From Roseomonas sp. (lineage in GTDB: Bacteria > Pseudomonadota > Alphaproteobacteria > Acetobacterales > Acetobacteraceae): 34,719 nucleotides of DNA. The notes under the pieces are model-generated. The model saw only the letters and a list, made by a program, of their open reading frames with translations, had not been told where the DNA came from and did not search any database. The stretch spans positions 1 to 34,719 of the forward strand of contig JADCES010000144.1 in the NCBI GenBank assembly GCA_020250005.1, read 5' to 3'. Positions 12,839 through 31,415 of the stretch are shown piece by piece; the first letter of the stretch is position 1; each line of letters begins with the position of its first letter. Made by a program: the position numbers and the translations under genes.

Positions 12839-14518
12839 CTAGCGCCGCGAAGGCGGTGGCGAGGCCGGGGGCTGCAATACCGCGGTTAGATCGGCTATTG
12901 CCTGATCCCGGCTGGGCGGATTGCCACTGCTGACCGCGACCATGTGCCGCGCTGCGATACGCGCGAGTTCCGGCAAATACTGCACATTCTGCCCCTGCAA
13001 TTCCTGCTGCACCACATTGCCGGCATCCGCGATCCGGAGCCGATCCGCGCTGCGCCCAACCGAAAGCACAGTCCGCAGATAGCTTGCGGCCAATTCCTGA
13101 GCACGCGCTGGTTGGCCTTCCGCCTGACTGCGCAGCGCCGCTTCGATGCGCGCCATGGTATTCGTAATTTGCTGCGTGCGTTCCTGTTGCCGACGCAGCG
13201 CCGCCTGCACCTCCGCCTGCGTGGCAGCGGCGATGCGGCCCTGATCTTCCGCGAGCGTGCGCTGCGCCTGCACGGTTTCCGCCTGCACGCGCGCAAAGGC
13301 GCCCAGCAATTCGCCAAAACCCTGCGCGAGCAGGATTTGCCGGCCAATCTGCGCCGCGGCGGCGATCTGGCTTTGGATCGCCTGCATTTCCTGATCATTG
13401 CGTTCACGCTGCGCGGTACGCAAAGCCGCGCCCACACGATCAATTCCCTGGCGCAGCGCTGGGTCTGGCGTGTCATTCTTCAGCACTTCCAAAAGCCGCG
13501 CCGGGTCTTCACTGGCGGTGCCGCGCGATTGAGCCTCAGCTTCAAACGCGGCGCGCAATTGTGCGGGGCGCTGGTCGCTGCTGGTGGCAACCAAGGCAAG
13601 CACGGGGCGAAAGCCAAGGCTGCGCAGGCGAAGCGCTTCGCCATTGCGATCAAGCGGCGGCAATTCAACGCGCAGGCTTGAGCGGATCTGATCTTCCGGC
13701 GTCAGGAAATCCCCGCCGCGCGCCACCATGCCGCCCGCCTGACCATGCGGCCGGCCAACGCGATTGAGCCGATAGGGTTCCAGCACCCATTCCGCAACAT
13801 TGCCGAGTATATCGAAAATCCCAAGCGGATTGGGTTCAAGCATGCCAATGGGCCGCAACCGCCCGCCCGAGGATCTTGTGCCCTGAAACCAGACATGGCG
13901 CTGCATGCCTTCCGGCATTGGAAATACACGCGCGCTGAAATCCGCTTCTGATACCGCCGCCCCACCACGTGCGGCGAATTCCCATTCATCTTCGGTCGGC
14001 AGGCGCACGAAGGCGCGCGCATCATCGCGCATGGGCAAGGCATCACGCGCATTGCGCGCGAGCCAGGCGGAATAGCGTAGCGTGAAGCCAATCGCCTCAT
14101 GCCAAGCGATATCTGCCTGCGGCAATCGGCCAGCGGTGGCTGGGCTTGGGCAGCTTTCGCTGGTGACGGCGCTGTATTGGTCGCGCGTTACCTCATATTT
14201 GCCGATATAGTAGCGCGGCGGCGCTGCGGCATCGGCGCCTTGAAACGGACCGGCGATGAAGCTTTGGCGCAGGAATTCACTGTAATTCGTGGTGGCATCA
14301 GCCTGACCCAGCATGGCAGGGCGATCAGCAAGCAAGCCTTGGCCCAGCGGTGTGGGCACTGGGCGAAAGGCAATGGCACCGCCGCAAGGCATGGGCAGGA
14401 TCAGATCATCGGCGAGAGGTTTTGGATTCCAGAATTCCGCTGCCCATCGTTCCTGCGCTTGCGCTGCCGGAGGCAAGCTTGCCGCCATGGCGATCAAGGC
14501 GATGAATAGCTTACGCAT
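12839..14518 (-). CDS. Secreted FGE/sulfatase-modifying-factor-like protein with helical tail
   Basis: The product has 559 residues from the ATG at 14518, which overlaps the permease stop (ATGCGTAA). A longer frame upstream lies inside the permease gene. Residues 1-21 are a signal peptide (ends AAQAQ). Residues 103-308 are an FGE-sulfatase domain, with YYIGKYEVTRDQY, RLPTEDEWEFAARGG (172-186), NPLGIFDILGNVAEWV (230-245), ARGGDF and LGFRPVLA. The paired catalytic cysteines of true formylglycine-generating enzymes are absent near 273-300, so it is probably a binding rather than catalytic domain. Residues about 320-540 are Gln/Ala/Arg-rich and predicted helical. It is the last gene of the SrfB/SrfC cluster and is likely periplasmic. 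Confidence 0.82.
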   Translation of the reverse strand: MRKLFIALIAMAASLPPAAQAQERWAAEFWNPKPLADDLILPMPCGGAIAFRPVPTPLGQGLLADRPAMLGQADATTNYSEFLRQSFIAGPFQGADAAAPPRYYIGKYEVTRDQYSAVTSESCPSPATAGRLPQADIAWHEAIGFTLRYSAWLARNARDALPMRDDARAFVRLPTEDEWEFAARGGAAVSEADFSARVFPMPEGMQRHVWFQGTRSSGGRLRPIGMLEPNPLGIFDILGNVAEWVLEPYRLNRVGRPHGQAGGMVARGGDFLTPEDQIRSSLRVELPPLDRNGEALRLRSLGFRPVLALVATSSDQRPAQLRAAFEAEAQSRGTASEDPARLLEVLKNDTPDPALRQGIDRVGAALRTAQRERNDQEMQAIQSQIAAAAQIGRQILLAQGFGELLGAFARVQAETVQAQRTLAEDQGRIAAATQAEVQAALRRQQERTQQITNTMARIEAALRSQAEGQPARAQELAASYLRTVLSVGRSADRLRIADAGNVVQQELQGQNVQYLPELARIAARHMVAVSSGNPPSRDQAIADLTAVLQPPASPPPSRR

Positions 14519-15734
14519 CGCGCAGCCCCTCCGCAGGTTCGATGCGGGCAGCGCGATAGCCGGCAAAAGCGGCTGACAGCGCCGCGCCAAAAAGACTGAC
14601 CAGCAAGGCCAGCACAAGATGTTCCGGCGCAATGGCGCAAATGGCGCGCCCACCGGCGGGATTGGCGCCACCCAAGGGCAATCGGTTCACCAGCCCCGCC
14701 ACGCTCAGCGCCAGCAGGCTTGCCAAGGCAGCACCGGCAGCGGCGATGATCAGCGCCTGGATCAGCGGAAACACCACAAGATCACGCCGCGAAAGCCCGA
14801 TCAGGCGCAATAGTGAAAGATCACGCTGTTTGCGTTCCACATTGGCATAGAGCCCAACCCCAAGTGACACCAGATACCCAACCCCGCCCAAGCCCGCGAG
14901 CAAGGCGAATAGCAGCGTGAGACTACGATCAAGGCTGAGTAGGCTTGCCACCTGTTCCGCAAGCGTTTCAACATCCACGCCCTCGCGCCGCAGATCATGG
15001 TCAATGCGCGTCACATCTTCCAACCGCCGCGCATGGGCGCGAAAGCCGGCAAAAATCCGTACAGGATCATCCGTGATGTCGGTAGCGGTTGCGGAAGGCG
15101 GCAGTACACCATCGGTGAAACCATCCACCAACAACAGTGTCTTGAGGTCCACAAAGACACCATCTCGCCCGAAGGCGCTTGGGGGTGCGATGGCAGCGAC
15201 AGTTACCGTGAGATTCAATACCTCACGCGCGCCGGCATCACCGCGAATGGCGCGTAACGTCACCTGCATGCCTGGTCGCAGATCGAGCCGTGCCGCGAAT
15301 GAAGCGCTTGGGATGATTTGATTCGGCGTAATGCTCGGCAGGCCATGCAGCAAGGGATCACCCGCGGCGGTGGCAAGCAATTCCGCGCGTAGCACCGTGC
15401 CGGGGCGCGTCGGGTTTTCAAACCGTGCTTCGGTATTCAGGCTGCGGATGCGCGGGATGACAAAGGCGATATCAGGTCGCGCGGCAAGGCGCGTGAGGAA
15501 CGCCGCATCGAAATTGCGATTGGCGGCGTTTACGACCATGCGGCTGCGCGGATTATCAATCAGCTCCGCGCGCAGCCCATCAATCACGCCCTGCTTCAAG
15601 CCAAACAGCACGATAAGCGGCGCCAGCACTGCCGCCAGACCAATCAGCGAGCAAAGAGCGAGCGTGCGTTCATGCAAAAGATCACGCAGCGAAAGCCCGC
15701 ACAGCAGCCCGGTGTGAGAAGGGCTTCTACTCAC
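14511..15734 (-). CDS. ABC transporter permease, FtsX/MacB/LolC type
   Basis: The product has 407 residues from a GTG at 15734, which overlaps the ATPase stop as GTGA. The topology is one N-terminal membrane helix (about 24-46), a large extracytoplasmic domain (about 47-265), then three helices near the C-terminus (about 272-294, 318-345, 368-392). The cytoplasmic turn ERKQRDLSLLRLIGLSRRDL is typical of FtsX-like permeases, as is the end GYRAARIEPAEGLRDA. Members extract lipoproteins, export peptides or transmit force to periplasmic enzymes instead of importing solutes. It pairs with the ATPase just upstream. The substrate is unknown. The context suggests it serves the VWA and FGE-like periplasmic proteins. 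Confidence 0.88.
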   Translation of the reverse strand: MSRSPSHTGLLCGLSLRDLLHERTLALCSLIGLAAVLAPLIVLFGLKQGVIDGLRAELIDNPRSRMVVNAANRNFDAAFLTRLAARPDIAFVIPRIRSLNTEARFENPTRPGTVLRAELLATAAGDPLLHGLPSITPNQIIPSASFAARLDLRPGMQVTLRAIRGDAGAREVLNLTVTVAAIAPPSAFGRDGVFVDLKTLLLVDGFTDGVLPPSATATDITDDPVRIFAGFRAHARRLEDVTRIDHDLRREGVDVETLAEQVASLLSLDRSLTLLFALLAGLGGVGYLVSLGVGLYANVERKQRDLSLLRLIGLSRRDLVVFPLIQALIIAAAGAALASLLALSVAGLVNRLPLGGANPAGGRAICAIAPEHLVLALLVSLFGAALSAAFAGYRAARIEPAEGLRDA

Positions 15735-16486
15735 GCCGGCGCGCCTGTGGTTGCGCGGCCAAGCCAGGAACGCCCTGTGCCTTGGTTGGCTTCCGTGCGG
15801 ATTTGCAGCAGCGCAAAACCATGACGCGCGGCACGATCCGGATCATGCGTCGCCAGGATCAGCGCCGTATCCTGCGCGCGCGCCTGTTCCAGCAGCAGGG
15901 CCATTACCGTATCGGCCAGGGCGGGATGAACACTCGCGGTTGGTTCATCTGCCAGCAGGATTTCCGGGCGATGCGCCAAGGCGCGGGCAATCGCCACACG
16001 TTGCCTTTGCCCAACGGAGAGAGTGGCCGGCATTCTCTCGAGCAAAGACGCAATCTCAAGCCGCGCCGCCAAGGCTTCGATATGCGCGGGATCAGGCCGG
16101 CCGAGCACTGCCTGGCTGAGAGCGATATTGCGCCGAACAGAAAGAAACGGCAGCAGCCCACCTGTTTGCAGGATATAGCCGAAATGCGCGGCACGAATGG
16201 CGGTCAGGCGGCCTTCGTCGTGGGCACGCCACAGGGCGGCAAGGTCTATTACCTTGCCATCGCGCGGCGTCAGGAGAAATTGCGCGGCACTTGATGGGCG
16301 CCGCGCCAAGGCCAGCAGATCAAGCAGGGTGGATTTGCCCGAACCGGAGGGGCCGATCAGCGCCACGGCCTCACCACGCGCGATCGAAAATGCCTCGATG
16401 GTCAGTTCAAAGCCTAGCGCACCACCTGGTGCCTGATGGCGAATGATCACATCTTGCAGCAGCAGGGTTGGTGCGGGTCGGTTCAT
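15731..16486 (-). CDS. ABC transporter ATPase, LolD/FtsE/MacB type
   Basis: The product has 251 residues. Walker A is GPSGSGKST (45-53), the Q-loop is YILQTGG, and Walker B is ILLADEPTAS. Two deviations stand out: the signature is LSVGQ (156-160) instead of LSGGQ, and the D-loop reads SVHP instead of SxLD. The H-loop ATHD is normal. The ATG at 16486 has GAGGG 5 bp upstream, at the end of the VWA gene. It is followed directly by its permease. It would power a mechanotransmission-type ABC complex in the inner membrane. Confidence 0.9.
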   Translation of the reverse strand: MNRPAPTLLLQDVIIRHQAPGGALGFELTIEAFSIARGEAVALIGPSGSGKSTLLDLLALARRPSSAAQFLLTPRDGKVIDLAALWRAHDEGRLTAIRAAHFGYILQTGGLLPFLSVRRNIALSQAVLGRPDPAHIEALAARLEIASLLERMPATLSVGQRQRVAIARALAHRPEILLADEPTASVHPALADTVMALLLEQARAQDTALILATHDPDRAARHGFALLQIRTEANQGTGRSWLGRATTGAPA

Positions 16487-16494
16487 GCACGCCC

Positions 16495-18444
16495 TCAGGG
16501 CAGCGCATCGAGCGGCACGGGATACATCGCCTCACCGGGATTGCGCCCGCCATCGAAGCTCACCCAAAGCGAAGGCTGGCGATTGAATTCCTCATAAAGG
16601 CGGAGCTTTGCTTCCAGCGCATTGACGATTTCGGTGCGCCGCCCGGCACCCATGCTGTTCCATTCTTCCTGCGTGAATTCCATGATCTGGCTTTGGTAGG
16701 GCAGGTCCTGCAGGAACTCGCCAAAGGCGCCGCCCAGGCGTTGGAATTCCGCCATGCGGCGTGGGTCGCGTGCGGTGGCGGCGGCGGCGGCGCGTACGCG
16801 CTCGAAGAATGTCTCGGGCGAAAGGCGCGCGGCCGCCTGAGCCTGGATGATGCTGCGCAGCGTATTCGCCAGATCAGAAAGCTGATTGCGCGTCAGCAGT
16901 ACACGCACATCCAAGGGCCGCCTTTCAGGGCGCGGATCAGCCGGGTTCAATTCCTGATCCAGCACGAAGCTCCGCACCACATCGGGCGCGGTCTGCTGCC
17001 TTTCGCGCCCCAGATAAGAAAGCCGCATAGCAGTGCCGACAATCTCCGCCTGTTCGGCGATGCGCCTGTCAGCTGCGCTTTGCGGCGCGCGGATACCGGC
17101 GATGGGTCGGCCGACGGCGGCGGCAACTTGCGCGAGCAGCGCATCGGTCAGCGCATCCACGGTCTGGCCGAATTGGTTCAGATTGCCTTCATTGATCGGG
17201 TAGTAGAGTTCCCCCGCGGCACCAAAGCGCGTGAGTTCACGGTATTGCCTCTCGGCGCGCGCATGATTGTTGCGCCCTTCCGGTGTTTTCAGATGGATGG
17301 CGTAGATCGCGACCTGCTTCGCTTCGGATTGCGCCAATTGGCGCATTTCTTCCGGGCCCATCTGGGTTTGTGCGCGCGGGTCCTTCGCATCCCGCGCGCC
17401 GGCATCCGTGATCAGAATAACGAAACGCCCGCCATATTCCTGCCAGGGCACCTCATCCAAAGCTAGCTTGATCCCAGCGAGTGAATCCTCATCAAAGCCT
17501 TCATTGCTCTCACGCGCTTCGGCGAGTTGCGAAAGGCGGGGCAAAATTGCATCCGAAGCCTCAGCCAAGTCGGGCAAGGACACCATGCGCGTCACATATT
17601 CAAGCCTGGGATTGCCACCCATATGGTCACGGAAGGCCACCATGCCGAAGCGGAAATTGTCACGCACTGCGGTATCGCGAATGCGATCTACCACGCGCTT
17701 CAAAGCTTCCCGCGTGCGGTCAATATAGGGCCCCATGCTGATGGTGGTATCCACCACAAAGACAACAGCGCCGCGATAATTGCGCAGCGCATCGGGGTCA
17801 GCGGGTGGCGGGGGCGCAGCCTGGGCAGGGGCGGAAATCACTTCCAGCAATCGCGCTTCCTGCGCTGCCTCATTTTCCACACGCTGTGCGGAGAGTATAG
17901 GTAGCAGGTAGAATTGCCTGGTGATGTCGATGAAGTTTTCGGGTTCCAGCGCAATCACCGGCCCTTCGGTATTCGCCCGCGCGGCTTCGCGCAACCGCGT
18001 AGCCTCTGCCGCGCCGCCGCGTGTATTCAACCAAAGCGCGCGGGGCGTTTCCGCATCACGGAAGAACATGGCGCGGTCGCGCCCGGCTGGGTTGTTGAAA
18101 GCCAGCACCATGGTCTGCTTCCAATCCATGGTACGTTCGGCACGGACCCAGCCCTGCGTGCGACCATCCTGTGCTGCGCCAATTTCAAGCCAGCCATCGG
18201 CGCCGCTGCCCTGGCGCGCATAGACATAGAAAACACCAAAACCCGGCGTTGGCTGGGAAGGCGCATTCGCATCTGGCCGTTCGGCGAGGCGCGCGCCCGG
18301 GCGCAGGATCACGCGTTGGAATAGCGTGGCGCGCCCTTCCATGAGCAGCGGCTGCCGCACCGGCTGTTGCGCGCTGATTTCCGCAACCGACACGGCGCAA
18401 AGAAACCCAAGCGCAAGAACCCAAAGCCCGCGACGCAACATCAT
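16495..18444 (-). CDS. Secreted von Willebrand factor A domain protein
   Basis: The product has 649 residues. The N-terminus is a signal peptide (about 1-25, ending EISAQ). Residues 30-105 look like an SH3-type domain (LRPGARLAERPD, then DGWLEIG, then GWVRAE). A von Willebrand A domain spans about 225-440. Its metal-site motif is DTTIS at 232-236, a D-x-T-x-S form of the usual D-x-S-x-S, followed by MVAFRDH and ILITDAGARD. Residues 440-649 are mostly helical, with no recognised domain. The ATG overlaps the upstream stop (two ATGs in tandem). The ATPase gene follows after 8 bp. VWA domains bind protein partners through Mg2+. Here it probably acts in the periplasm within the SrfB/SrfC cluster. 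Confidence 0.85.
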   Translation of the reverse strand: MMLRRGLWVLALGFLCAVSVAEISAQQPVRQPLLMEGRATLFQRVILRPGARLAERPDANAPSQPTPGFGVFYVYARQGSGADGWLEIGAAQDGRTQGWVRAERTMDWKQTMVLAFNNPAGRDRAMFFRDAETPRALWLNTRGGAAEATRLREAARANTEGPVIALEPENFIDITRQFYLLPILSAQRVENEAAQEARLLEVISAPAQAAPPPPADPDALRNYRGAVVFVVDTTISMGPYIDRTREALKRVVDRIRDTAVRDNFRFGMVAFRDHMGGNPRLEYVTRMVSLPDLAEASDAILPRLSQLAEARESNEGFDEDSLAGIKLALDEVPWQEYGGRFVILITDAGARDAKDPRAQTQMGPEEMRQLAQSEAKQVAIYAIHLKTPEGRNNHARAERQYRELTRFGAAGELYYPINEGNLNQFGQTVDALTDALLAQVAAAVGRPIAGIRAPQSAADRRIAEQAEIVGTAMRLSYLGRERQQTAPDVVRSFVLDQELNPADPRPERRPLDVRVLLTRNQLSDLANTLRSIIQAQAAARLSPETFFERVRAAAAATARDPRRMAEFQRLGGAFGEFLQDLPYQSQIMEFTQEEWNSMGAGRRTEIVNALEAKLRLYEEFNRQPSLWVSFDGGRNPGEAMYPVPLDALP

Positions 18445-19454
18445 GGCCAGAATTCCCTCAGCGCAGTTTCCGCCGTGCCATTACCAGCGCGCGCCTGCTC
18501 CTCAAGCCAATTCCTGAGCGCAGCACGCGGGGCTTGCGCAGCCGCATCACCCCTCTGCACCGCATCGCGGTAATAGCGCGCCGCCGCACGCGGATCTGGC
18601 GCGCGGAAGGGACGACCGGCAACAAAACCAATCGGGTCATAAAGCCGCGCGACAGCGGTCAGCGCCGGCGCATGGCCGCGTTCGCCAGCTTCTTCGAACA
18701 AGACCAGCGCATCATCATGCCGACCGGCGGCCTGACGCCTGAGCGCCGCCGCGTGGATGGCGGCAGCGTCGGCTGCGGATTGCACCAGATCGCGCAGGTT
18801 CATGCCATCGCTGCGTTCCAGCCAGGGGCGTTCCGCCGTGACTGGCGCGGGTGGCGGTGCCGGTGTTGCGACGGGCGCCGGTGCCGGTGATGGCGCGGGG
18901 GAGGAACCGGTGAACCACCAGACAGCGCCACCAACCGCCACCAGCAACAGCAAGCCGATACCGGCAAACAAGGGCGCGCGCGAGGCACCTTCGTGCTTTG
19001 CGGGTGGCGCAACATCTTCGCGCGGCGGCGGTGCGGGCGCAGGCGCTGGTGCGGGCGGTGCGGCAGCAACCGGAGGAGGCTTCGGCGCCATTTCCGGATC
19101 TCGTGGTAGCACCGTTTCTGGCGGCAAGTCGCCATCGAAAACATCAATATCGTCGGGCCAAAACAGACTTGCTTCCAAAGCCGCTGCCGGTAGCAGAAAC
19201 ACCAAGGGGCCCGGTTCCAGATGCCGCGTCAGCCTTGGGCCGATCACTAGAACGGTGTCAGCCCCTTCCTGACGGACTTCGACCGGGGTCAGTTTTTCTT
19301 CCTGTACCTGCCAACCACGCCGGCCAAGATTGGCCGCGGCATAACCTTCCCTCACAATACGAAAGCCGCCATCGCTCGGCGCCTGCACACCCTCAAGCGT
19401 GATGCGCGCATGGCCTAATGAAAAGCGCCGATCATTTTCAACGCGCGGCATCAT
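18441..19454 (-). CDS. Single-pass membrane protein with Pro-rich linker and Sel1/TPR-like tail
   Basis: The product has 337 residues. No family is recognised with certainty. Residues 1-115 are a soluble domain with beta character (RFSLGHARITLEG, VLVIGPRLTRHLEPGPLVFLL). Residues about 120-160 are a Pro/Ala-rich linker, and residues 161-182 form one membrane helix. A second Pro/Ala linker is followed, from about 215, by helical repeats of Sel1 style (ALVLFEEAGERGHAPALTAVARLYD, then ARYYRDAVQRGDAAAQ). With an N-in orientation the tail would be periplasmic. By position it could be the local counterpart of SrfA, since it sits beside SrfC and SrfB, but I cannot confirm homology. It begins 26 bp after SrfC and overlaps the VWA gene by 4 bp. 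Confidence 0.72.
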   Translation of the reverse strand: MMPRVENDRRFSLGHARITLEGVQAPSDGGFRIVREGYAAANLGRRGWQVQEEKLTPVEVRQEGADTVLVIGPRLTRHLEPGPLVFLLPAAALEASLFWPDDIDVFDGDLPPETVLPRDPEMAPKPPPVAAAPPAPAPAPAPPPREDVAPPAKHEGASRAPLFAGIGLLLLVAVGGAVWWFTGSSPAPSPAPAPVATPAPPPAPVTAERPWLERSDGMNLRDLVQSAADAAAIHAAALRRQAAGRHDDALVLFEEAGERGHAPALTAVARLYDPIGFVAGRPFRAPDPRAAARYYRDAVQRGDAAAQAPRAALRNWLEEQARAGNGTAETALREFWP

Positions 19455-19480
19455 GCGGTGGGGCCTTTTTGCTTCATGTC

Positions 19481-22111
19481 TCAGGCGGCCACCTTGCGCA
19501 GGCCACTCAGCAGGCTGCCAAGCCGGGCATTGGATTTTTCATCAACCATGGCGCCGCCCGCGCCGCGCACATTATCTTCCACCAGGCGCACAAAAGCGAC
19601 AGCCCAATCAACGTAGAACGCCGCATCATAGGCGATGGGTGTTTCGGAAAGGCGTGGCATGTCATCGGCGGGCGCTGGCGGGCGAATGAAAATGCTGCGC
19701 CCTTCGCGCCCGGCCTTGGGGCGGGCTTCGACGGGCATTTTGTCAAAGCCCATCCATGTCACGAAATCATTGATCGCGCGTTCGGCAATCATCACCGGCT
19801 TCAGCAGCCGATTGGCCATGGATTCATTATAGGCAGCCTCGGTCCGCATTCGCGCGGCGATGTTTTCGCGCAGCTTCAGGCGCCGCGCCCCGGCTGCGAG
19901 TTGCGCAACAAGTGTGGCGATGGCCTCGCGATCCATGCGGAACAATTCGGGGCTGTCATTGCGCGCGGCGAAGCGGTGCATATTCTGCAACCATTCTGCC
20001 ACCGCGGCTTCGGCGAAAAGATCGGCCTGATCGCGCGGGCCTTCTTCCGCTTCGTCAACCGGGGCGGCAGGCGGTGGATCATCCTCAAACAGCGCTTCGA
20101 ATTCGCTCCGCAATTCGCGCGCCGTGGTCTTGCGCCCGACAGGTGCGGTCACGGCCGAAGGCGTCTCAGCCGCAGCCAATTGCTGGCGGCGGAACAGTTC
20201 GGCCAGGGTTTCGCCCTGCACCTGCAACTCGCGCAGCAGCAAGCCGAAAGCCTGGGCTTCCGCGCAAGCGAGTAATTGCCGCCCGACCAGTCGCGCCTCT
20301 GCCCGCCGCTTGGCCAATTCCGCATCCAGATCGCCGGAAACATGATAGCCTTCCAGCCTTCCCGCCATGCGCTTGGCAAGATCACCAAGCTGGCCTTCCA
20401 CCTGCCGGCGCTTGAGCGCGGGGTTGCAGACGGGGCGGAGCTTTTCGGAAAGATAGCCAATGCCACCATCATTCAAGGCCATGCCCGCTTCCCAGGCGCG
20501 TTCAGGATGGGCGAAGTGCTTTTGCACATCCGGGTTGGCGAGGAAATTCGCCTTCAGTCGCGCTACACGTTCCGGATCGCGGAAGCTGATTTCACGACCA
20601 TTCGCGTCATAATCCAAAAGCCCCTTGTTCAGCACTTCAGGGTTGCGCAGCCAAAACGTATTATTGAAGGGCTGGCCCGACACCCATTCCGATGGCCAAT
20701 CATGGCCAAGGCCCAGGAACTCGAAAATCGTTGTCTTCACCCGTGTGGACCAGCGTTCCACATTGTCTTCAGCGCCGCCTTTGATCTCAAATTCCATGTC
20801 GAACATAGTCAGCACCAGGAACAAGGCGACATCCTGGCCCTTTCGCGCCTCTGGCGTGGCGCCATGCGTGCCATCAATCCAGTTTCGCACCATGGCGGGC
20901 ACGGTGCGCACTTCCTGGTTGCTGTGCTTCAGGCAGAGCAACATGGAAGTCAGTTCCTGTTCCGCCAGATAGCGCTGATAGAGATAGGCAACTTTGCCGC
21001 GCCTGAGCAGCATGAAAAGATCGCTCTGCGCCACTTCCTCGGCCTTGGCGGCGTTGTATTTTTCGCGCCCGCGCGCGCCGGGGAAATCCAGCAGATCGGT
21101 ATAGTCAAAGAAATCGAAGGGCTTGTCTTCAAGCTGCAACTGCAATTCGGCCACAACCGCCGTCAGCACCGCGCGCGGCAATTCTGCGCGGCGCCCGGCG
21201 CGGGTCGCCACCGGCACGGGATCACCATCACCCTTGCCGAGATACGACATCGTCTCGACATCAATGATGCTCTGCGCCTTGGGCGCCACTGCCAGCATCG
21301 GGCAGCAGGCTTCTTCCGGAAAATCGAGCTGCGCCAGGGCCTGAACTAATTTCAGCGCAGTCGCTGTCATGGTTGGCGTATTGTTCCAAAGCAGCCCGTA
21401 AAGCTCTACCCGATCGGCAATGGCAAGCCGCGGCGCCAGGCTTTCAATCTCCCGCCAAGCACCGGGCTTCAGCGCCAGATGGGTCGGGTGGTTCAGGAAA
21501 TAGCGTTCGAAATACTCGAATAGATCATAGATATCATCTTCATTCAGCCGCCCCACTGCCGCCGGCGCGGCCTTCGCGCGGGCTTTTGCCAGGCTTGCTT
21601 CGATCATACTGCTGTCAAGCGGGATCACCGTGTCACGGTCAAAATCCTCCATGAAGGCATTCGCCATGATTTTCACGATGTCGGTTTCAGACAGCATGCG
21701 GCAGACCACGGGCATGCCAGGCAGGCCGGTCACTGGGCGCGTCGTGAAGCGCGTCACCAGACCGGTTGATTCCTTGCCACCATCGGGATTGATGTCGCGG
21801 TTGAAGCCGCGCAGCTCCTCCCCGAAGCGGATCGTAGTGGGCTTGCCTTCCTTCCGCGCTAAGGAGGCGATCAGATAGCTTTTCCCCTGTTGGCTTGGGC
21901 CAAAGACGGAAACGCACATGGGCCGGCGCGCAGCATTGGCAAGCTTGCGCGCGCGCAAGCCTTCACGGCGAAAATCGCGCGCCAAGGCAGGGCCTTCTTC
22001 GCGCACCACATCGCCCGCGCCAGCAATCCATTCAATCGCGCCTTGCGCGGCAGCCGCCACCGTATCGCAGCGATGCGCCAGGGCTTCGTTTTCGGCATTC
22101 GGTGTTGTCAT
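19481..22111 (-). CDS. srfC: SrfC-family large P-loop GTPase-like protein
   Basis: The product has 876 residues from the ATG at 22111, with GAGGA 8 bp upstream. A longer frame would overlap SrfB. The N-terminal half is a GTPase-type domain: Walker A GPSQQGKS (71-78), a possible switch threonine in ESTGLVTRFT (114-123), the G3 motif DFPG (342-345) in DLLDFPGARGRE, and a TMFD (435-438) at the G4 position instead of NKxD. This layout resembles dynamin-like GTPases. The C-terminal half is helical with charged segments. The family is named after Salmonella SrfC, where its biochemical activity is not established as far as I know. It is cytoplasmic, 10 bp downstream of srfB, and probably works with it. 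Confidence 0.85.
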   Translation of the reverse strand: MTTPNAENEALAHRCDTVAAAAQGAIEWIAGAGDVVREEGPALARDFRREGLRARKLANAARRPMCVSVFGPSQQGKSYLIASLARKEGKPTTIRFGEELRGFNRDINPDGGKESTGLVTRFTTRPVTGLPGMPVVCRMLSETDIVKIMANAFMEDFDRDTVIPLDSSMIEASLAKARAKAAPAAVGRLNEDDIYDLFEYFERYFLNHPTHLALKPGAWREIESLAPRLAIADRVELYGLLWNNTPTMTATALKLVQALAQLDFPEEACCPMLAVAPKAQSIIDVETMSYLGKGDGDPVPVATRAGRRAELPRAVLTAVVAELQLQLEDKPFDFFDYTDLLDFPGARGREKYNAAKAEEVAQSDLFMLLRRGKVAYLYQRYLAEQELTSMLLCLKHSNQEVRTVPAMVRNWIDGTHGATPEARKGQDVALFLVLTMFDMEFEIKGGAEDNVERWSTRVKTTIFEFLGLGHDWPSEWVSGQPFNNTFWLRNPEVLNKGLLDYDANGREISFRDPERVARLKANFLANPDVQKHFAHPERAWEAGMALNDGGIGYLSEKLRPVCNPALKRRQVEGQLGDLAKRMAGRLEGYHVSGDLDAELAKRRAEARLVGRQLLACAEAQAFGLLLRELQVQGETLAELFRRQQLAAAETPSAVTAPVGRKTTARELRSEFEALFEDDPPPAAPVDEAEEGPRDQADLFAEAAVAEWLQNMHRFAARNDSPELFRMDREAIATLVAQLAAGARRLKLRENIAARMRTEAAYNESMANRLLKPVMIAERAINDFVTWMGFDKMPVEARPKAGREGRSIFIRPPAPADDMPRLSETPIAYDAAFYVDWAVAFVRLVEDNVRGAGGAMVDEKSNARLGSLLSGLRKVAA

Positions 22112-22121
22112 GGCCTGATCC

Positions 22122-25097
22122 TCACGGCACCGAAAGCGCGCCGGTGTCGCGCCAATAACCCGCCTCACTGCGTTCGGTTTGCAGGCGCAGGCGCACGATG
22201 CCACGGTGCTGCGGGTCGCCCTCGGCATCCAGGATTTCGTCTATGGTAAAATCCTCCCGTAATTCTTCTGCATCCGCGCTTTCGGGGTCTATTTCCGCGC
22301 GCTGGATGGAAAGCTTCAAGGGCAGCTTCAGCCGCGGCACGTTATCCGGATTTGCATATTCCAGAATGTAAAGCCGGCTCGCGGTCCAGCGTTCCAGATC
22401 CAATTGGCGGAAGCCAAGAAAAACCGGCGCGCGGAATTCCATGGTGAATTTCACATCCTGCGATGCGCCCGGCGCTTTTGATAGCGCCGCATCCGGGTCC
22501 TGCAGCAACACATTCTGCCGAAGGATCTGCCCCGAAATCTCCATCCGGCCGAGGTATTTGGCGGTAGAGCGCATGGCAAGCCGGCTGGTACGCATCAGGA
22601 AGTTTTCCAAACGCCCCTCAGCCACGGCGCAAAGCATGGCACCCACAGCCGCCGTAGTTTTCGGATCATCCACGCGTCCGGCAGAATCGCGGAAAGGATA
22701 CCAGCTTCCGGCGCGGTAGCGATGCATGCCGACAATGCGATGCGGCGGCACGGGCATCTTGGCCAGCACCATGTCAAATATCGCGCGCAGCCTGGATGGC
22801 CTGCCGGACAGCAGCAACCAATCGCAATCAAAGGCATAGACCACTTCGCAAAGATCAGCGATCACCTGGCCAAGCGCTGCCTGTACAATCGCATCCACAC
22901 TGCCCGCCGCCGCTGCCATTTCCACTTCAAGCAATTGGAATCCGGTAGCCCCGGCACGCGCCGCCTGTTGTTCGAAATAGCGCAAGGGTGCGGCCACATC
23001 GCGGCCATGCAGAATGGTGGCGAGCTTTTCGCGCAGGAATTCGCCGGAAGCGCGTTCATCTATCTTTTCGTAGCCATGCAATATCGCAAGCCCGATCGGT
23101 TCCAGCACTTGCGCCACGAATTGCCGGCGCAAATGCCGTTCCAATTCGCTTTGCGCCCCGCGATCCCCGCCCAGCACTTCACGGAGCAGCGCCTTCGGGT
23201 CACGCGCCCCGGCTGCACGCAGGCTTTCTTCAAGCTGCGGCAGGACGATGCTTTGAATGACTTCCTGCAACACCTCATCGCCCGCGATGCGGAAGCCTTC
23301 GCGGAAATTCTGATGCGGTTCAATTTCCTGCCCGGCTTCGGCGGAATAGGTGCAGATCATCAAATCCGTGGTGCCGCCACCAATATCAATGCTCGCCACG
23401 CGCAGCGATGGTGCCTTGCCATAGCCCTCGCGCGCACGCCCCGTCAGCGCAAAGAAGCTCGCCGGATCGCCACGCAAGCGCTGACTTGCCTCGGTATACA
23501 GGAATACCAACTGCGTTGCCGTCGCTTCATCCAAATTGGCGATGATGCGCGGTTCCGGCGGCGGTGCTGCGGCGCCAGGCGCGGCATTGCCCCAGCCCAT
23601 CATATCCCAGGCAAGGCGCACTGCCGCTTCAGCGCGATGGCGGAAAATGCGCTGTTCCGCGAGCGCCATGGCCGGCGGCATGGTCAGCAAAATACGCCGC
23701 AACCGGCGCGGCACATCGGGGAAGCTCCGCGCATAGCGGGTTTCGACCGAATTGATTTGCGATAGCGCCTGCAACAGGATTTCCGCGAGCAGGAAGCTCA
23801 TCAGCGATGATCGGCTGAAGCGCGCGCGCACGGCGGGTTGCCGCGGCGCGCCACCTCGGCCGCGCGGCTTGGCACGCAGGACTTCGCCTTCTTCCGTCAC
23901 CCAGGCCATGAAGCTGCCACTGACCGGCGGTTCAGTGGTCACGCCATCCGCAGCCATGCCATTGAAGCGCCAAACCTGAGTCGTCGCTCTTTCATCCCAA
24001 AGATAGCGCTTGGGTGAAGATAGGCCCGTTGCCCCTTCATTGCCGCGCGCGGCAGCAGAAAGCCGCACCGCTTCCGGGCCGACGCGGACTGGGCTCAGCC
24101 ATTGAAAGGCATTGCCGCGCCCGGAACGGCGGCTGAGCGCATCCTTGCCGAAACTCGCGCGTGCGAATTCCACACGGCTTTCGAAGGGAAAAGCATAACC
24201 CAATTCCGGCGCACTCAAATCGCGTAGCTTCAGGGGATAGCTGTTGTTCAGATTAAGCCGGCTGTCGCGTTCATCTTCCACCAGAATGCCGCAGGTGCGC
24301 GCATTGCCGATATCCAGCACCAGATCAACATTGATCGGTTCATAGGAACGGCTTGTGGAAACCACGTCCACCAACTTCACGCGCGGCAGGATGCGCGCTT
24401 CGCTCAGCAATTCCAGCAGCGTGATATAGCGCGCCCAATGTTCGCAGGCGCGCTGCTCATCCTCAGGCCGCGGGCGCCGGCCACTGGCCAGGCGCATTTC
24501 CTGCAAGACTTCTTCAAGCCACTGGATCAGCCAGGGTTCATTCATGAACCAGCTTGTCTGTTCCCGGTCTGACACAAAGGTGAATTCGCCGGCGCGTTCG
24601 CTATCGGCGGGCGAAATCGCGGTATAGGGGCGGCCTTCTTCACGCGCGCGCAAAGCCGTATCGAAGGCCAGCACGGCATGATGCGTATGGCCTTCCTCAT
24701 CCGGGGCGGAAAGTGCGGTGATGCGCAGCCGCGCCCAATTGGTCGGCCCCTTGTCATAGACTTCCTGGCCAGAGGCACCCACAGCCGCCACACGGAAATA
24801 GGGCAGCGGCAACCAACGCCCCAGGATGAATTCCAAAGCCTGGCCGCGGCCGATCTGATAGATTTCCTCATCCGGCGGGCTGCGCCCACTGATCGGGTCC
24901 AACAGTGCGCCTTCGCCGCTTTCTGTCAGGCGCCGCAGATTTACGAGGCCAACGCTCGCCGGATCAGCGCCGGGCGGCAGCGGCTGTTCCCAGAAGGAAC
25001 GCGGCGCGCGCGGCAGGCGGTCCAGGTTGAACCGGATGTCAATGAATTGCAGACCGGTCTGCGGCACCAGGCTGATGATTTGCGGCAGGCCCTGCAT
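22122..25097 (-). CDS. srfB: SrfB-family actin/Hsp70-fold ATPase-like protein
   Basis: The product has 991 residues, about the length of Salmonella SrfB. Three motifs of the actin/Hsp70/sugar-kinase fold are readable: phosphate-1 LDIGNARTCG (261-270), phosphate-2 SIDIGGGTTDLM (569-580), and adenosine LLLSGRPSRL (761-770). The first 255 residues are an added N-terminal region. The last 140 residues are beta-rich and end in an acidic stretch. It should bind ATP in the cytoplasm. It is the first gene of a seven-gene minus-strand cluster, with srfC 10 bp downstream. The ATG at 25097 lies right after TTTTGAAGA, which gives only a weak ribosome site. The Srf name rests on family recall and the SrfB-SrfC pairing. 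Confidence 0.87.
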   Translation of the reverse strand: MQGLPQIISLVPQTGLQFIDIRFNLDRLPRAPRSFWEQPLPPGADPASVGLVNLRRLTESGEGALLDPISGRSPPDEEIYQIGRGQALEFILGRWLPLPYFRVAAVGASGQEVYDKGPTNWARLRITALSAPDEEGHTHHAVLAFDTALRAREEGRPYTAISPADSERAGEFTFVSDREQTSWFMNEPWLIQWLEEVLQEMRLASGRRPRPEDEQRACEHWARYITLLELLSEARILPRVKLVDVVSTSRSYEPINVDLVLDIGNARTCGILVEDERDSRLNLNNSYPLKLRDLSAPELGYAFPFESRVEFARASFGKDALSRRSGRGNAFQWLSPVRVGPEAVRLSAAARGNEGATGLSSPKRYLWDERATTQVWRFNGMAADGVTTEPPVSGSFMAWVTEEGEVLRAKPRGRGGAPRQPAVRARFSRSSLMSFLLAEILLQALSQINSVETRYARSFPDVPRRLRRILLTMPPAMALAEQRIFRHRAEAAVRLAWDMMGWGNAAPGAAAPPPEPRIIANLDEATATQLVFLYTEASQRLRGDPASFFALTGRAREGYGKAPSLRVASIDIGGGTTDLMICTYSAEAGQEIEPHQNFREGFRIAGDEVLQEVIQSIVLPQLEESLRAAGARDPKALLREVLGGDRGAQSELERHLRRQFVAQVLEPIGLAILHGYEKIDERASGEFLREKLATILHGRDVAAPLRYFEQQAARAGATGFQLLEVEMAAAAGSVDAIVQAALGQVIADLCEVVYAFDCDWLLLSGRPSRLRAIFDMVLAKMPVPPHRIVGMHRYRAGSWYPFRDSAGRVDDPKTTAAVGAMLCAVAEGRLENFLMRTSRLAMRSTAKYLGRMEISGQILRQNVLLQDPDAALSKAPGASQDVKFTMEFRAPVFLGFRQLDLERWTASRLYILEYANPDNVPRLKLPLKLSIQRAEIDPESADAEELREDFTIDEILDAEGDPQHRGIVRLRLQTERSEAGYWRDTGALSVP

Positions 25098-27976: not shown

Positions 27977-28047
27977 CTGAGTGCGGATTATGCGCAGTAT
28001 TGGTGATCAACCGGTGAATAAGTGGCTCAAAAATTCAACGCACTCAG
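27977..28047. repeat. 9-bp inverted repeat with long loop downstream of phaR
   Basis: CTGAGTGCG (27977-27985) and CGCACTCAG (28039-28047) are perfect reverse complements separated by 53 bp. The right arm overlaps the phaR stop codon. The layout resembles the repeat at 10407-10478, also between two minus-strand genes with one arm on a stop codon. The sequences of the two pairs differ. Confidence 0.33.
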
Positions 28048-28640
28048 CCTTTGCTGCGTGATTTCAGCGCCGCCAATTCACTGCGCAGTGTCTCAATTTC
28101 TTTTTTTAACGCCTCGGTTTCATCGCTCGGGGCGTTTTCCTCGCGTCGCGCGAAAGGGGTAAACAGGCTCATCGCGCGTTCCATCATGGCGATATTCTGC
28201 TTGCCCACTTCCTGCATATTCGGAACACCCGCCGGGAAGGGCATGAAGCCGCCCATGGTCTTGGTCAGCGTATCGCGCATCTGTTCCTGCTGTTGCGAGA
28301 AGGACGCCATGGCCGCTTCCAGATAGCGCGGCACCAGCGATTGCAGATTATCGCCGTAAAGCCCGATCAATTGCCGAAGCACCGAGGTGGGCAGCATATT
28401 CTGGCCCTTGCCTTCCTGTTCCACGATGATCTGCGTCAGCACGCTCCGCGTCAGGTCTTCGCCGGATTTGGCGTCATAAACCACGAAATCCCGCCCATCG
28501 CGGACCATGGCGGCCAGGTCATCCAAAGTGACATAGGATGAGGTTTCAGTGTTGTAGAGCCGCCGATTCGCGTATTTCTTGACAACAATCGGGGGCAGCG
28601 CCTTCTGCTCGCCGGGTTCAGGGGATTGACGACCAGACAT
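28044..28640 (-). CDS. phaR: PhaR, polyhydroxyalkanoate synthesis repressor
   Basis: The product has 198 residues. The N-terminal PHB/PHA accumulation regulator DNA-binding domain is unmistakable (VVKKYANRRLYNTETSSYV, then TLDDLAAMVRDGRDFVVYDA, residues about 19-57). It is followed by the second conserved domain (LTRSVLTQIIVEQE, then LPTSVLRQLIGLYGDNLQSLVPRYLE) and a C-terminal coiled coil (TEALKKEIETLRSELAALKSR). PhaR binds both DNA and PHA granules and represses phasin and other PHA genes until polymer forms. It diverges from the PHA synthase genes with 137 bp between starts, in the expected place to control them. Confidence 0.96.
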   Translation of the reverse strand: MSGRQSPEPGEQKALPPIVVKKYANRRLYNTETSSYVTLDDLAAMVRDGRDFVVYDAKSGEDLTRSVLTQIIVEQEGKGQNMLPTSVLRQLIGLYGDNLQSLVPRYLEAAMASFSQQQEQMRDTLTKTMGGFMPFPAGVPNMQEVGKQNIAMMERAMSLFTPFARREENAPSDETEALKKEIETLRSELAALKSRSKG

Positions 28641-28777
28641 GGGTGCTTGCCTCGGCTTCTTCGGTTCTGGATTGGACCTAGCACGTTACATAACGCAAAG
28701 CGAAAGCCTGTTGCAGTGCAAAAACGCGCCCTTCGGGTCATATCGCGCCGGGGCGGATGCGGCTATAAGCCTGAGGG

Positions 28778-29179
28778 ATGGCTGGCCCCGAGGATCTCGA
28801 AAAGCTTGCGGAAGACTGGATCGCGCTCTGGCAGAGCGAGGTGGCCGGGCTCGCCGCCGATCCGGAATTGGCCGAAAGATGGGCGGCCTTTGCCTCCCTC
28901 GGCGCCGCGTGGCTCCGCGCCGCCGCCCAGTTCAGCAAGCCTTTTGCGCCAGGTGCCACCCAGCATGACAGCGCCGCTTCGCCGCCGCGGCCCGCGCCCG
29001 CTGCCGCTCCATCTGGGGCTGGCGGGGATCCGGGCCATGGCGGCAGCGGGGGCGCTGCCCGGGATGCCATGGCCGAACGCATCGCCACCCTGGAACGGCG
29101 CCTGGCCGATCTCGAAAGCGGGGCAGGCGGAAGCCGCGCGAATCAGCGCCGCCCTCGCCAGCGCCGGCCACGCGCCTGA
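28778..29179 (+). CDS. Small PhaE-like partner of PHA synthase (probable)
   Basis: The product has 133 residues. The N-terminus is helical and Trp-rich (LEKLAEDWIALWQSEVAGL, then PELAERWAAFASLGAAWL). A Pro/Ala/Gly linker (about 60-95) follows, then a short coiled coil MAERIATLERRLADLES (98-114) and a basic tail. This layout resembles truncated PhaE subunits of class III PHA synthases, with a helical body and a C-terminal heptad segment. That is family-level recall, not proof. GAGGG touches the ATG, and TATAAG lies at 28764-28769, so a leaderless transcript is possible. Its last 215 bp overlap the start of phaC in another frame. A frameshift or an unrelated small protein are the alternatives. 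Confidence 0.6.
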   Translation: MAGPEDLEKLAEDWIALWQSEVAGLAADPELAERWAAFASLGAAWLRAAAQFSKPFAPGATQHDSAASPPRPAPAAAPSGAGGDPGHGGSGGAARDAMAERIATLERRLADLESGAGGSRANQRRPRQRRPRA

Positions 29180-30197
29180 GGCGTTTCGCGGCGCGGTTCT
29201 GAACCGGCTGCTGCGGGCGGATCGGGCGCTGGTCGCGGGGCTGGCGGCCTATCGGCGCCATCCTTTTGAACGTCAGGCCCCGCCAGTGCCGGCCATTTGG
29301 GCCGAGGAAGACAGCAGATTGCTGGATTATGGCGGGCAGGGGCCTTGCGTGGTCTTTGTGCCCTCCCTGGTGAACCGCGCCTATGTGCTTGATCTGATGC
29401 CGGAAGCTTCCCTGCTGCGCTGGCTGCCGGGGCAGGGGTTTCGCACCCTGCTGCTGGATTGGGGTTGGCCCGGTGAGGCTGAGCGCCACTTCACCCTGAC
29501 CGATTACATCGCGGGGCGGTTGGAACGCGCGCTGATGGCCGCGTCAGGCCCGGTGATCCTGGCAGGGTATTGTATGGGGGGCTTGCTTGGCTTGGCGTTG
29601 GCGTTGCGTCGGCCCGATTTGGTGCGTGGCCTGGCGCTGCTCGCGACCCCTTGGGATTTCCATGCGGGGCCGGATGGTGCGGCGCGGGCGCGTGCTGCCG
29701 CTGCCGCCCTGCCGGGGCTGGAAGCGCTGATGGAACCAACCGGTGCGCTGCCGGTGGATGTGCTGCAAACCCTGTTTGCCAGCCTTGATCCCTTTGGCAT
29801 TGCCGAAAAATTTCGGGGCTTTGGCCGGCTTGACCAGGCATCCCCCGCCGCGCGGCGCTTTGTGGCGCTGGAGGATTGGTTGAATGATGGCGTGCCGCTG
29901 GCCGCCCCGGTGGCGCGGCAATGCATTGGCGGCTGGTATGGGCGGAATGAACCCGCAAGCCTTGCTTGGCGCGTCGCGGGGCAGGTGGTGGACCCGGCGC
30001 TTTGGCAAGGCCCGGCCTTTGCTGCCATTCCGCATCGGGACCGCATTGTGCCGCCAGCTTCTGCCCTGGCGCTGACCGGCCGCTTGCGTCAGGTCAAGCT
30101 GCATATGGCGCCGGCGGGGCATATCGGCATGGTCGCCGGCATTGCGGCGGAAACCGCCCTGTGGCAGCCCTTGCGCGACTGGATGCGCGGTTTGTGA
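28965..30197 (+). CDS. phaC: PHA synthase, small (class III-like) PhaC
   Basis: The product has 410 residues from the ATG at 28965, with AGGTG 10 bp upstream. The frame is open further upstream, but that part does not resemble protein. The N-terminus RRRGPRPLPLHLGLAGIRA is typical of this short PhaC type. The alpha/beta-hydrolase core has the lipase-like box GYCMGG with catalytic Cys203, then Asp359 in IPHRDRIVPP and His386 in APAGHIGMV. The length is far below class I enzymes (about 590), as in class III or IV synthases that need a small partner. It polymerises 3-hydroxyacyl-CoA into PHA. It overlaps the PhaE-like gene and precedes phaA. If the start were at 29064 the overlap would shrink to 116 bp. 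Confidence 0.85.
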   Translation: MTAPLRRRGPRPLPLHLGLAGIRAMAAAGALPGMPWPNASPPWNGAWPISKAGQAEAARISAALASAGHAPEAFRGAVLNRLLRADRALVAGLAAYRRHPFERQAPPVPAIWAEEDSRLLDYGGQGPCVVFVPSLVNRAYVLDLMPEASLLRWLPGQGFRTLLLDWGWPGEAERHFTLTDYIAGRLERALMAASGPVILAGYCMGGLLGLALALRRPDLVRGLALLATPWDFHAGPDGAARARAAAAALPGLEALMEPTGALPVDVLQTLFASLDPFGIAEKFRGFGRLDQASPAARRFVALEDWLNDGVPLAAPVARQCIGGWYGRNEPASLAWRVAGQVVDPALWQGPAFAAIPHRDRIVPPASALALTGRLRQVKLHMAPAGHIGMVAGIAAETALWQPLRDWMRGL

Positions 30198-30242
30198 TAC
30201 CAAGCCGCAAATGACCCATTCTTGAGGAAGGATATCCCCCCA

Positions 30243-31415
30243 ATGACTGAAATCGTCATCGCTTCTGCCGCCCGCACGCCGGTTGGCGCCTTCAACGGGG
30301 CTTTTGCCTCTCTGCCCGCGCATGCGCTGGGCACTGTCGCCATCAAGGCCGCCATGGAACGCGCCCGTATTGAGGGCGCGGAAGTGGATGAGGTGATCCT
30401 GGGCCAGATCCTGGCCGCCGGCGCGGGGCAGAACCCGGCACGTCAGGCTTCCGTGAATGCCGGCATTCCGGTGGAACACACGGCCTTTGGCATCAATCAG
30501 CTTTGCGGCTCAGGCCTGCGCGCCGTTGCCTTGGCAGCGCAGCAAATCGCGACCGGCGATGCGCGCATTGTGGTGGCGGGCGGTCAGGAAAGCATGACCC
30601 AGGCGCCGCATGCGCAGCAGCTGCGCGCTGGGCAGAAGATGGGCGATCTTTCCCTGATGGATACGATGCTGCGCGATGGGCTGATGGATGCCTTCCATGG
30701 CTATCACATGGGCAATACGGCGGAAAACGTCGCCCGCGCCTTCCAGATCACGCGCGATGAACAGGATCAATTCGCCTTTAATTCGCAGCGCAAGGCGGGC
30801 GAAGCCATGGCGGCGGGCCGTTTCGCCGATGAAATCACGCCGGTGACGGTGAAGGGCCGCAAGGGCGATGTGGTGGTTTCCAGCGACGAATACCCGAAGC
30901 CGGATACGACGCTTGAAATCCTGGGCAAGCTGCGCCCGGCCTTTGCCAAGGACGGGTCTGTCACTGCCGGCAATGCTTCCGGCATCAATGATGGCGCGGC
31001 GGCGGTGGTGGTGATGACGGCTGCTGAAGCCGCCAAGCGCGGCATTACGCCGTTGGCGCGCATCGTGTCCTGGGCAACCGCCGGCGTTGATCCTTCCATC
31101 ATGGGGACTGGCCCCATCCCGGCATCGCGCAAGGCACTCGCCAAGGCGGGTTGGAAGATTGATGATCTTGACCTGATCGAAGCGAATGAGGCTTTCGCCG
31201 CGCAGGCCATTGCCGTGAACAAGGATCTTGGCTGGGATACCAGCAAGGTGAATGTGAATGGCGGCGCGATTGCCCTTGGCCACCCAATTGGTGCTTCCGG
31301 TGCGCGCGTGCTGACGACCCTGTTGTTCGAGATGCAAAAGCGCGGCGCGAAGAAGGCGCTGGCGACGCTTTGCATCGGCGGCGGCATGGGTGTTGCCATG
31401 TGCCTGGAGCGGTAA
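30243..31415 (+). CDS. phaA: Acetyl-CoA C-acetyltransferase (beta-ketothiolase)
   Basis: The product has 390 residues from the ATG at 30243, with AGGAAGGA upstream. A TTG 21 bp earlier is unlikely. Thiolase catalytic residues are all present: Cys88 in [11 protein letters not shown], His347 in [13 protein letters not shown] and Cys377 in [11 protein letters not shown]. The length matches biosynthetic thiolases. It joins two acetyl-CoA into acetoacetyl-CoA, the first step of PHB synthesis. Its position 45 bp after phaC supports this role, though a general thiolase (atoB) function is possible. No phaB reductase lies in the window. A strong terminator follows. Confidence 0.93.

Follow-up and report, generated by a model that had tools for sequence, protein, structure and literature searches.

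SrfB and SrfC are labelled 'virulence factors' of unclear function in the available text of PMC3608642, and in Roseomonas sp. their genes head a compact run of genes for membrane and periplasmic proteins. What would such a unit do, and which way would a signal cross the envelope? We addressed this question in a window of 34,719 nucleotides, the whole stretch of DNA analysed (assembly GCA_020250005.1, contig JADCES010000144.1), by comparing each gene and its surroundings with those of other genomes, plasmids and described systems.

The seven-gene operon and its two cytoplasmic NTPase-like proteins

Positions 12839-25097 hold seven open reading frames, all on the minus strand, with gaps of 10, 26, -4, 8, -4 and -8 bp, figures that assume ATG starts at residue 40 of the longest SrfC frame and residue 52 of the longest FGE frame. 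The first gene, g1 (22122..25097), encodes SrfB, a predicted actin/Hsp70-fold ATPase of 991 residues (PF07520, 969 bits), and the adjacent g2 (19481..22111) encodes SrfC, or Virul_Fac, a P-loop GTPase-like protein (PF10139, 770 bits; start at M40, with the first ATG at 22228). The third, g3 (18441..19454), encodes a single-pass linker with an N-terminal domain, a Pro-rich stretch, a transmembrane segment and a Sel1-like C-terminus, and g4 (16495..18444) a protein with a Pfam VWA domain and a hydrophobic segment at residues 2-20 at its N-terminus. These are followed by an ABC ATPase, g5 (15731..16486; ABC_tran, 91 bits), an FtsX-like permease with a GTG start, g6 (14511..15734; FtsX, 36.6 bits), and an FGE-fold protein, g7 (12839..14518; FGE-sulfatase, 93 bits), which starts at M52 of its longest frame (GTG at 14671) with a signal peptide recognized by eye. 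Upstream lie an M23 peptidase gene and xseA, and downstream a DUF155 gene; elsewhere in the window, 28044-31415 carries polyhydroxyalkanoate-type genes (a PHB regulator, an alpha/beta hydrolase with a weak PhaC match and a thiolase).

A sequence-only reading had treated these nearly gapless genes as one unit, and this held: the gaps were reproduced, and the order recurs in other classes. All seven genes were present in 20 of 20 fetched loci of the same genus, and the same order is common to loci of Alpha-, Beta- and Gammaproteobacteria and one Desulfovibrio, so the linkage is more than chance. The closest named relative among the matches listed is a Roseomonas MAG, with 98% identity in SrfB. 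Two departures were seen: one same-genus genome has ~1.7 kb of extra DNA separating the linker and VWA genes (L106, 12657-14339), possibly an insertion, and genome G265 has operon genes split over two contigs (L078, L280), in an altered order and with the linker present twice. A promoter consensus scan was uninformative (3 sites, 3.8 expected). Terminator-like sites numbered 28, more than the 17.2 (sd 4.4) of shuffled sequence. Several of them fall within the operon, for instance in the ABC gene (16306-16282) and where the linker gene begins (19444-19425); these consensus matches would be a mild point against one unbroken transcript.

SrfB contains DIGN, DIGGGTTD and LLSGRPS, which we take to be the actin-type phosphate-1, phosphate-2 and adenosine motifs; the actin/Hsp70 set is thus complete, and its core residues are invariant across 22 homologues. 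SrfC carries GPSQQGKS (Walker A), DFPG and LTMFD, and across 58 homologues G110, G115, K116 and P383 are invariant and D381 and G384 are conserved in at least 90%. Where GTPases carry a TKxD-type motif, with its G4 lysine, SrfC has LTMFD and lacks the lysine, and GTPase-like is the description that its motifs suggest. The DFPG motif, which we take to be dynamin-like, led us to consider a dynamin label, and SrfC may possibly be of that type. PDB profile searches returned nothing significant for SrfB and, for SrfC, dynamin-1-like and GBP proteins below significance (E 0.46-1.9); both fold assignments therefore rest on motifs. Neither protein has a predicted transmembrane segment. In Xenorhabdus, SrfA, SrfB and SrfC co-precipitate, and SrfB was also resolved as a larger complex (PMC6950479). 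In Salmonella, mutation of srfC impairs swarming and leaves swimming normal (PMC4219756). How far these results carry over to the Roseomonas operon is uncertain.

Periplasmic genes, linker and the place of the kinase

A g4 profile built from 27 sequences and run through 398 genomes of the phylum gave 17 matches at E 1e-5 or better, 15 of them strong. Six of the 15 strong genomes fall in one family (f194), in which the open frames are 1017-1189 residues long; this family is probably Pseudomonadaceae, because one member (G436) adjoins Pseudomonas lopnurensis in the tree. We took 20 kb around each of the six matches and found T6SS loci in which the g4 profile covers ~620 residues in the C-terminal part of kinase fusions (706-712 bits), while g5, g6 and g7 match at 296-305, 413-437 and 347-354 bits, near full length and with their order preserved in six of six. 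A Pfam scan of one such locus placed Pkinase (PF00069) at the N-terminal front of the VWA protein, PP2C, TagF, IcmF, DotU and VasE/TssK to one side and a Gly-zipper protein past the FGE gene, and phmmer recovered this protein set in the other five. Gene by gene, we take the arrangement to be PpkA, TagT, TagS, TagR and TagQ. That naming agrees with the roles described in the available text of PMC11881912 and PMC3608642. An annotated T6SS cluster on Tistrella mobilis pTM1 holds T6SS genes together with PP2C, kinase, vWA, ABC, FtsX and SUMF1 genes.

These profile matches are strong evidence that g4-g7 are relatives of a sensor module made of the periplasmic region of PpkA, here minus the kinase, with TagT, TagS and TagR. 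In P. aeruginosa, outer-membrane damage is sensed via TagQRST-PpkA, which is required, and T6SS assembly is triggered near the damage (PMC11881912).

In g5 the Walker A, signature, Walker B and H-loop motifs are intact. PDB matches of g7 are FGE-fold proteins including PorK, and a PDB search with g4 alone gave nothing at E 0.01. The formylglycine-generating enzyme uses a catalytic cysteine pair. We considered g7 as a catalytic FGE and rejected it, the pair being absent; because the fold region has a single cysteine (residue 174 of 610), g7 is probably a binding protein.

The ABC pair had been read as FtsEX/LolCDE-type, with which it shares an ATPase and an FtsX-like permease, but membership was rejected: the curated LolCDE, FtsE and MacB cut-offs are all missed. 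What similarity there is to DevA/LolD/FtsE and LolC models, below cut-off, would suit a pair that exports lipid, lipoprotein or peptide with the VWA and FGE-like proteins as periplasmic partners. We consider this improbable given the missed cut-offs and given that TagT and TagS of T6SS loci are matched instead, at ~300 and 410-440 bits.

No kinase domain was found by Pfam in g3 or g4 of the window, nor in 27 g4 and 32 g3 homologues. As those homologue sequences had been trimmed, we searched whole frames, and 120 of 121 SrfB loci (some of them duplicates) gave no kinase match; the sole match is a separate gene in a Desulfovibrio locus that lacks g4 (L143). One g4 homologue on a Klebsiella plasmid (H63) is annotated as a serine/threonine protein kinase; the scanned g4 homologues have no kinase domain.

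The linker itself gave no Pfam match above cut-off. It has one strong hydrophobic segment, residues 160-178, and Sel1 matches occur at the C-terminus in 10 of 32 family members. On Tistrella mobilis pTM1, which encodes kinase and VWA protein separately, the linker profile aligns with the final part of the kinase (residues 358-471, 71 bits), and in a second genome carrying the Tistrella genus code (G067) it matches kinase residues 364-463, again at 71 bits, across the Sel1-like region and excluding the Pro-rich part. The C-terminus of the window linker by itself scores 35 bits against the G067 kinase. The linker thus looks like the membrane anchor of the kinase carrying a different cytoplasmic head, a reading whose whole basis is the periplasmic end common to the two proteins.

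Set beside TagQRST-PpkA of the Pseudomonas T6SS, the Roseomonas operon keeps the order of VWA periplasmic region, TagT, TagS and TagR, and its genome encodes a candidate TagQ-like lipoprotein. It differs in having no kinase domain and no adjacent PppA, TagF or T6SS genes, in having SrfB and SrfC as cytoplasmic partners, and in encoding VWA protein and membrane anchor separately, as Tistrella also does.

Profiles found neither a TagQ-like nor a SrfA-like gene in the window, where the M23 peptidase occupies the place upstream of SrfB. Another contig of the same genome (C11) carries a TagQ-like candidate (130 bits) with an LPAC lipobox-like start, judged by eye, and a Gly-zipper; three genes matching a SrfA profile directly precede it in the same orientation, the successive genes being 15, 6 and 87 bp apart, the row spanning C11 10049-15130 (L299 7050-12131). 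These SrfA-like proteins carry a strong hydrophobic segment. Genomes G005 and G015 have the same order as C11, and in the sister genome G004 the SrfA-like genes immediately precede SrfB; the simplest account would be an operon divided in two in this lineage. Because TagQ and SrfA are both unlinked in the Roseomonas genome, their membership in the system is put forward by inference.

Of 70 loci with SrfB and g7, some of them duplicates, 39 carry a TagQ-like Gly-zipper protein according to a profile that was itself seeded from such matches, 28 adjacent by a simple rule and 11 elsewhere or overlapping. Of the loci that gave no such match, 7 are too short and 24 lack the gene, 18 of these being the window and its genus.

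Spread, T6SS linkage and other outputs

All 35 same-genus genomes, the window's own included, gave a SrfB match, as against none of the 24 other genomes of that sample; three of the 35 matches (G009, G018, G030) are partial and lie at contig ends. SrfB is core-like in the genus. Across 385 genomes of the class (own included), SrfB occurs in 22 and g4, at E 1e-5, in 25. Of these 25 g4 matches 23 are strong and two weak (25-29 bits), and one of the 25 is a fragment at a contig end. Both genes occur in 19 genomes, with g4 on another contig in G105, G265 and G404; three have SrfB only (G100, G314, G392) and four strong g4 only (G035, G067, G196, G294). In the phylum sample of 398, SrfB exceeded the cut-off in 21 genomes and strong g4 occurred in 15, with 8 holding both, 7 g4 only and 13 SrfB only. 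Co-occurrence by Fisher's test, uncorrected for kinship, gave p ~2e-25 for the class and ~7e-8 for the phylum. As the search scores few candidates per genome, absences are lower-confidence.

A set of at least 70 named loci was also scored; two with weak SrfB matches (L190, L191) were dropped, and 57 of the remaining 68 had at least 9 kb downstream. Among the matches listed, these 57 SrfB loci carry SrfC in 56, the linker in 40, VWA in 36, ABC ATPase in 36, permease in 35 and FGE-like protein in 32. The sequence-only reading would have been refuted had srfB and srfC never co-occurred with the VWA, ABC and FGE-like genes in related genomes, but they do: among the matches listed, 32 of 57 loci have all of g4-g7, 4 have some and 21 none. 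Those 21, which include enteric-type, Sinorhizobium, Methylocapsa and Bacteroidota loci among the matches listed, mean that SrfB and SrfC can occur without the sensor, and so it cannot be their input in every case.

Of 72,556 plasmid records, 142 match SrfB and 125 match g4, with 114 being Klebsiella by name in each search. Enterobacter sp. 638 pENTE01 and one K. pneumoniae plasmid (L292) are annotated SrfA-SrfB-SrfC-linker-vWA-ABC-permease-SUMF1-hypothetical, and a plasmid of the acetic acid bacterium Gluconobacter albidus carries SrfB through SUMF1 plus a TagQ-like gene. Plasmid carriage, patchy spread and the pairing of NTPases with a VWA protein would all be at home in an anti-phage or other conflict system, and defence was one of the roles first suggested. 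We regard this as a poor fit to the remaining evidence and unlikely, since PADLOC gave matches of ATPase type only (the best, the ABC ATPase to mad3, at 87.7 bits) and SrfB has the core-like distribution described above.

The proximity of srfBC to tag and ppkA genes is already known: srfB, srfC, tagQ, ppkA and ligA, mostly with tagR, tagS and tagT, were described in one neighbourhood in host-associated Deltaproteobacteria in 2013 (PMC3608642). Those neighbourhoods resemble the present operon in grouping srfB, srfC, tagR/S/T/Q and 'ppkA', mostly without T6SS genes. In the available text of that paper, ppkA is taken as a kinase and SrfC export is proposed, whereas here g4 is kinase-less in the examined loci, the linker is the likely anchor, and the spread extends to Alpha-, Beta- and Gammaproteobacteria. 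In an open-access literature search, outside which most subscription papers fall, neither the missing kinase nor the anchor homology nor a tubulin-linked form turned up, and two papers, PMC3608642 and PMC7146990, mention SrfB together with PpkA. A 'ppkA' T6SS cluster of P. syringae, in the available text of PMC7146990, may be the same operon type, a SrfB gene being tabulated there with T6SS genes.

The enteric srfABC operon shares the SrfB and SrfC families but has SrfA upstream, where Roseomonas has its SrfA-like genes on another contig. Many enteric-type loci have no g3-g7 (for example L110, L111, L113 and L154-L156), and others have them (L119 and L163; Enterobacter sp. 638 and Klebsiella plasmids). 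A further parallel is with the FtsZl1 tubulin-like/VWA/GTPase/OmpA systems of Makarova and Koonin 2010 (PMC2875224), which likewise set a cytoskeleton-like NTPase beside a VWA protein and are predicted to remodel membranes; the NTPase here is the actin-like SrfB, and the words Srf, PpkA and TagS do not occur in the main text of that paper.

The sensor genes also occur with another cytoskeleton-like protein. In two genomes carrying the Tistrella genus code, a Tubulin_2 protein of ~1000 residues and a small linker directly precede them (L277 5121-8835 in G067, 192 bits; L278 5062-8868 in G196, 194 bits), and G067 holds both a kinase-linked and a tubulin-linked sensor. This arrangement may represent a third type of output. 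At L275 and L245 the sensor is present, and SrfB, kinase and tubulin are absent among the part of the genes scanned. In a Desulfovibrio locus (L143 17222-23117), SrfB, SrfC and the linker are present and g4-g7 are absent; the genes that come next encode FHA, VWA-FHA, PP2C and kinase proteins.

A search for TssK (PF05936), the single T6SS marker used, gave no match in the window's own genome (325 contigs, 97% complete). Within the genus, 13 of 35 genomes have TssK. Of 24 other chosen SrfB genomes, 10 have it, two of these by partial matches, and 14 lack it, among them two 2.0 Mb assemblies of 1-2 contigs; the operon thus recurs where TssK gave no match.

In a tree of concatenated g4-g7 from the 53 of 82 loci that have all four genes, T6SS-linked modules lie in two places. 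Placing them in one clade was rejected under LG+G4 (p-AU 0.0033; 6 rows against 47) and, with fewer rows, under LG+C20 (p-AU 0.017; 4 against 36). This suggests at least two pairings of the module with T6SS, a result that the tree suggests rather than proves because of long branches and uneven composition. A single clade of all SrfBC-linked modules was rejected with Desulfovibrio L159 included (p-AU 0.00025) but not without it (0.148).

The proposed route from envelope to SrfB and SrfC

We favour, with somewhat better than even confidence, a kinase-less relative of TagQRST-PpkA in which sensing of envelope disturbance drives a SrfB/SrfC response that replaces kinase-T6SS signalling. An outer-membrane TagQ-like lipoprotein, encoded elsewhere in the genome, would detect the disturbance together with the periplasmic TagR-like and VWA proteins, and the TagS/TagT-like pair would spend ATP either to pass the signal on or to reset it. 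The single-pass linker would convey it to the cytoplasm and engage SrfB, the actin/Hsp70-fold ATPase, and GTPase-like SrfC, whose nucleotide-driven assembly at the inner membrane would form a local response, probably envelope or surface remodelling. What the sequence shows is which parts are there and in what order, that the kinase is missing, that linker and kinase have a C-terminus in common and that the operon recurs where TssK gave no match; the stimulus, the direction of the signal, the SrfB/SrfC assembly and the response are our inference.

The domain matches agree with the envelope-spanning unit that had been proposed from the sequence, in which a membrane linker and an ABC pair stand between two NTPase-like proteins in the cytoplasm and the VWA and FGE-like proteins in the periplasm. 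The proposed direction fared less well: the NTPases had been pictured as signalling outward, and because g4-g7 match the TagT/TagS/TagR/PpkA-periplasmic module, an outside-in sensor is more likely. A secretion role is likewise weakened by the lack of a TssK match in the genome and by an ABC pair below the LolCDE and FtsE cut-offs.

SrfA, SrfB and SrfC could instead be effectors or a tripartite toxin whose export the tag and VWA genes trigger, as the proposal in PMC3608642 that PpkA may trigger SrfC export and the reported cytotoxicity of purified Xenorhabdus SrfABC (PMC6950479) would have it. We give this little credence for the Roseomonas operon: SrfB and SrfC have conserved NTPase motifs and no predicted transmembrane segments, the genome's SrfA-like proteins have a strong hydrophobic segment, the kinase is absent from 120 of 121 SrfB loci, and TssK is missing here and in 14 of 24 other SrfB genomes. 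That the operon regulates a T6SS encoded elsewhere in the genome is least likely of all, for although g4-g7 match the sensor of T6SS threonine phosphorylation and TssK does occur in some genomes of both samples, the locus has no kinase and its own genome, like those 14, the two 2.0 Mb ones included, gave no TssK match.

The favoured reading, a kinase-less envelope sensor acting on SrfB and SrfC, ties two proteins labelled as virulence factors to relatives of a sensor with a known stimulus in Pseudomonas, and this tie makes their function directly testable by outer-membrane damage assays. It also makes tag- and ppkA-like genes unreliable markers of T6SS, and a sensor of wider use may count the familiar T6SS trigger among its roles. 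More tentatively, and against our own leaning, TagQRST/VWA could serve Proteobacteria in general as a plug-in envelope sensor, its cytoplasmic output being swapped between kinase-T6SS, SrfB/SrfC and a tubulin-like protein, with the T6SS pairing having arisen more than once. If true, bacteria would have in this plug-in sensor their own version of outside-in mechanosensing coupled to cytoskeletal filaments.
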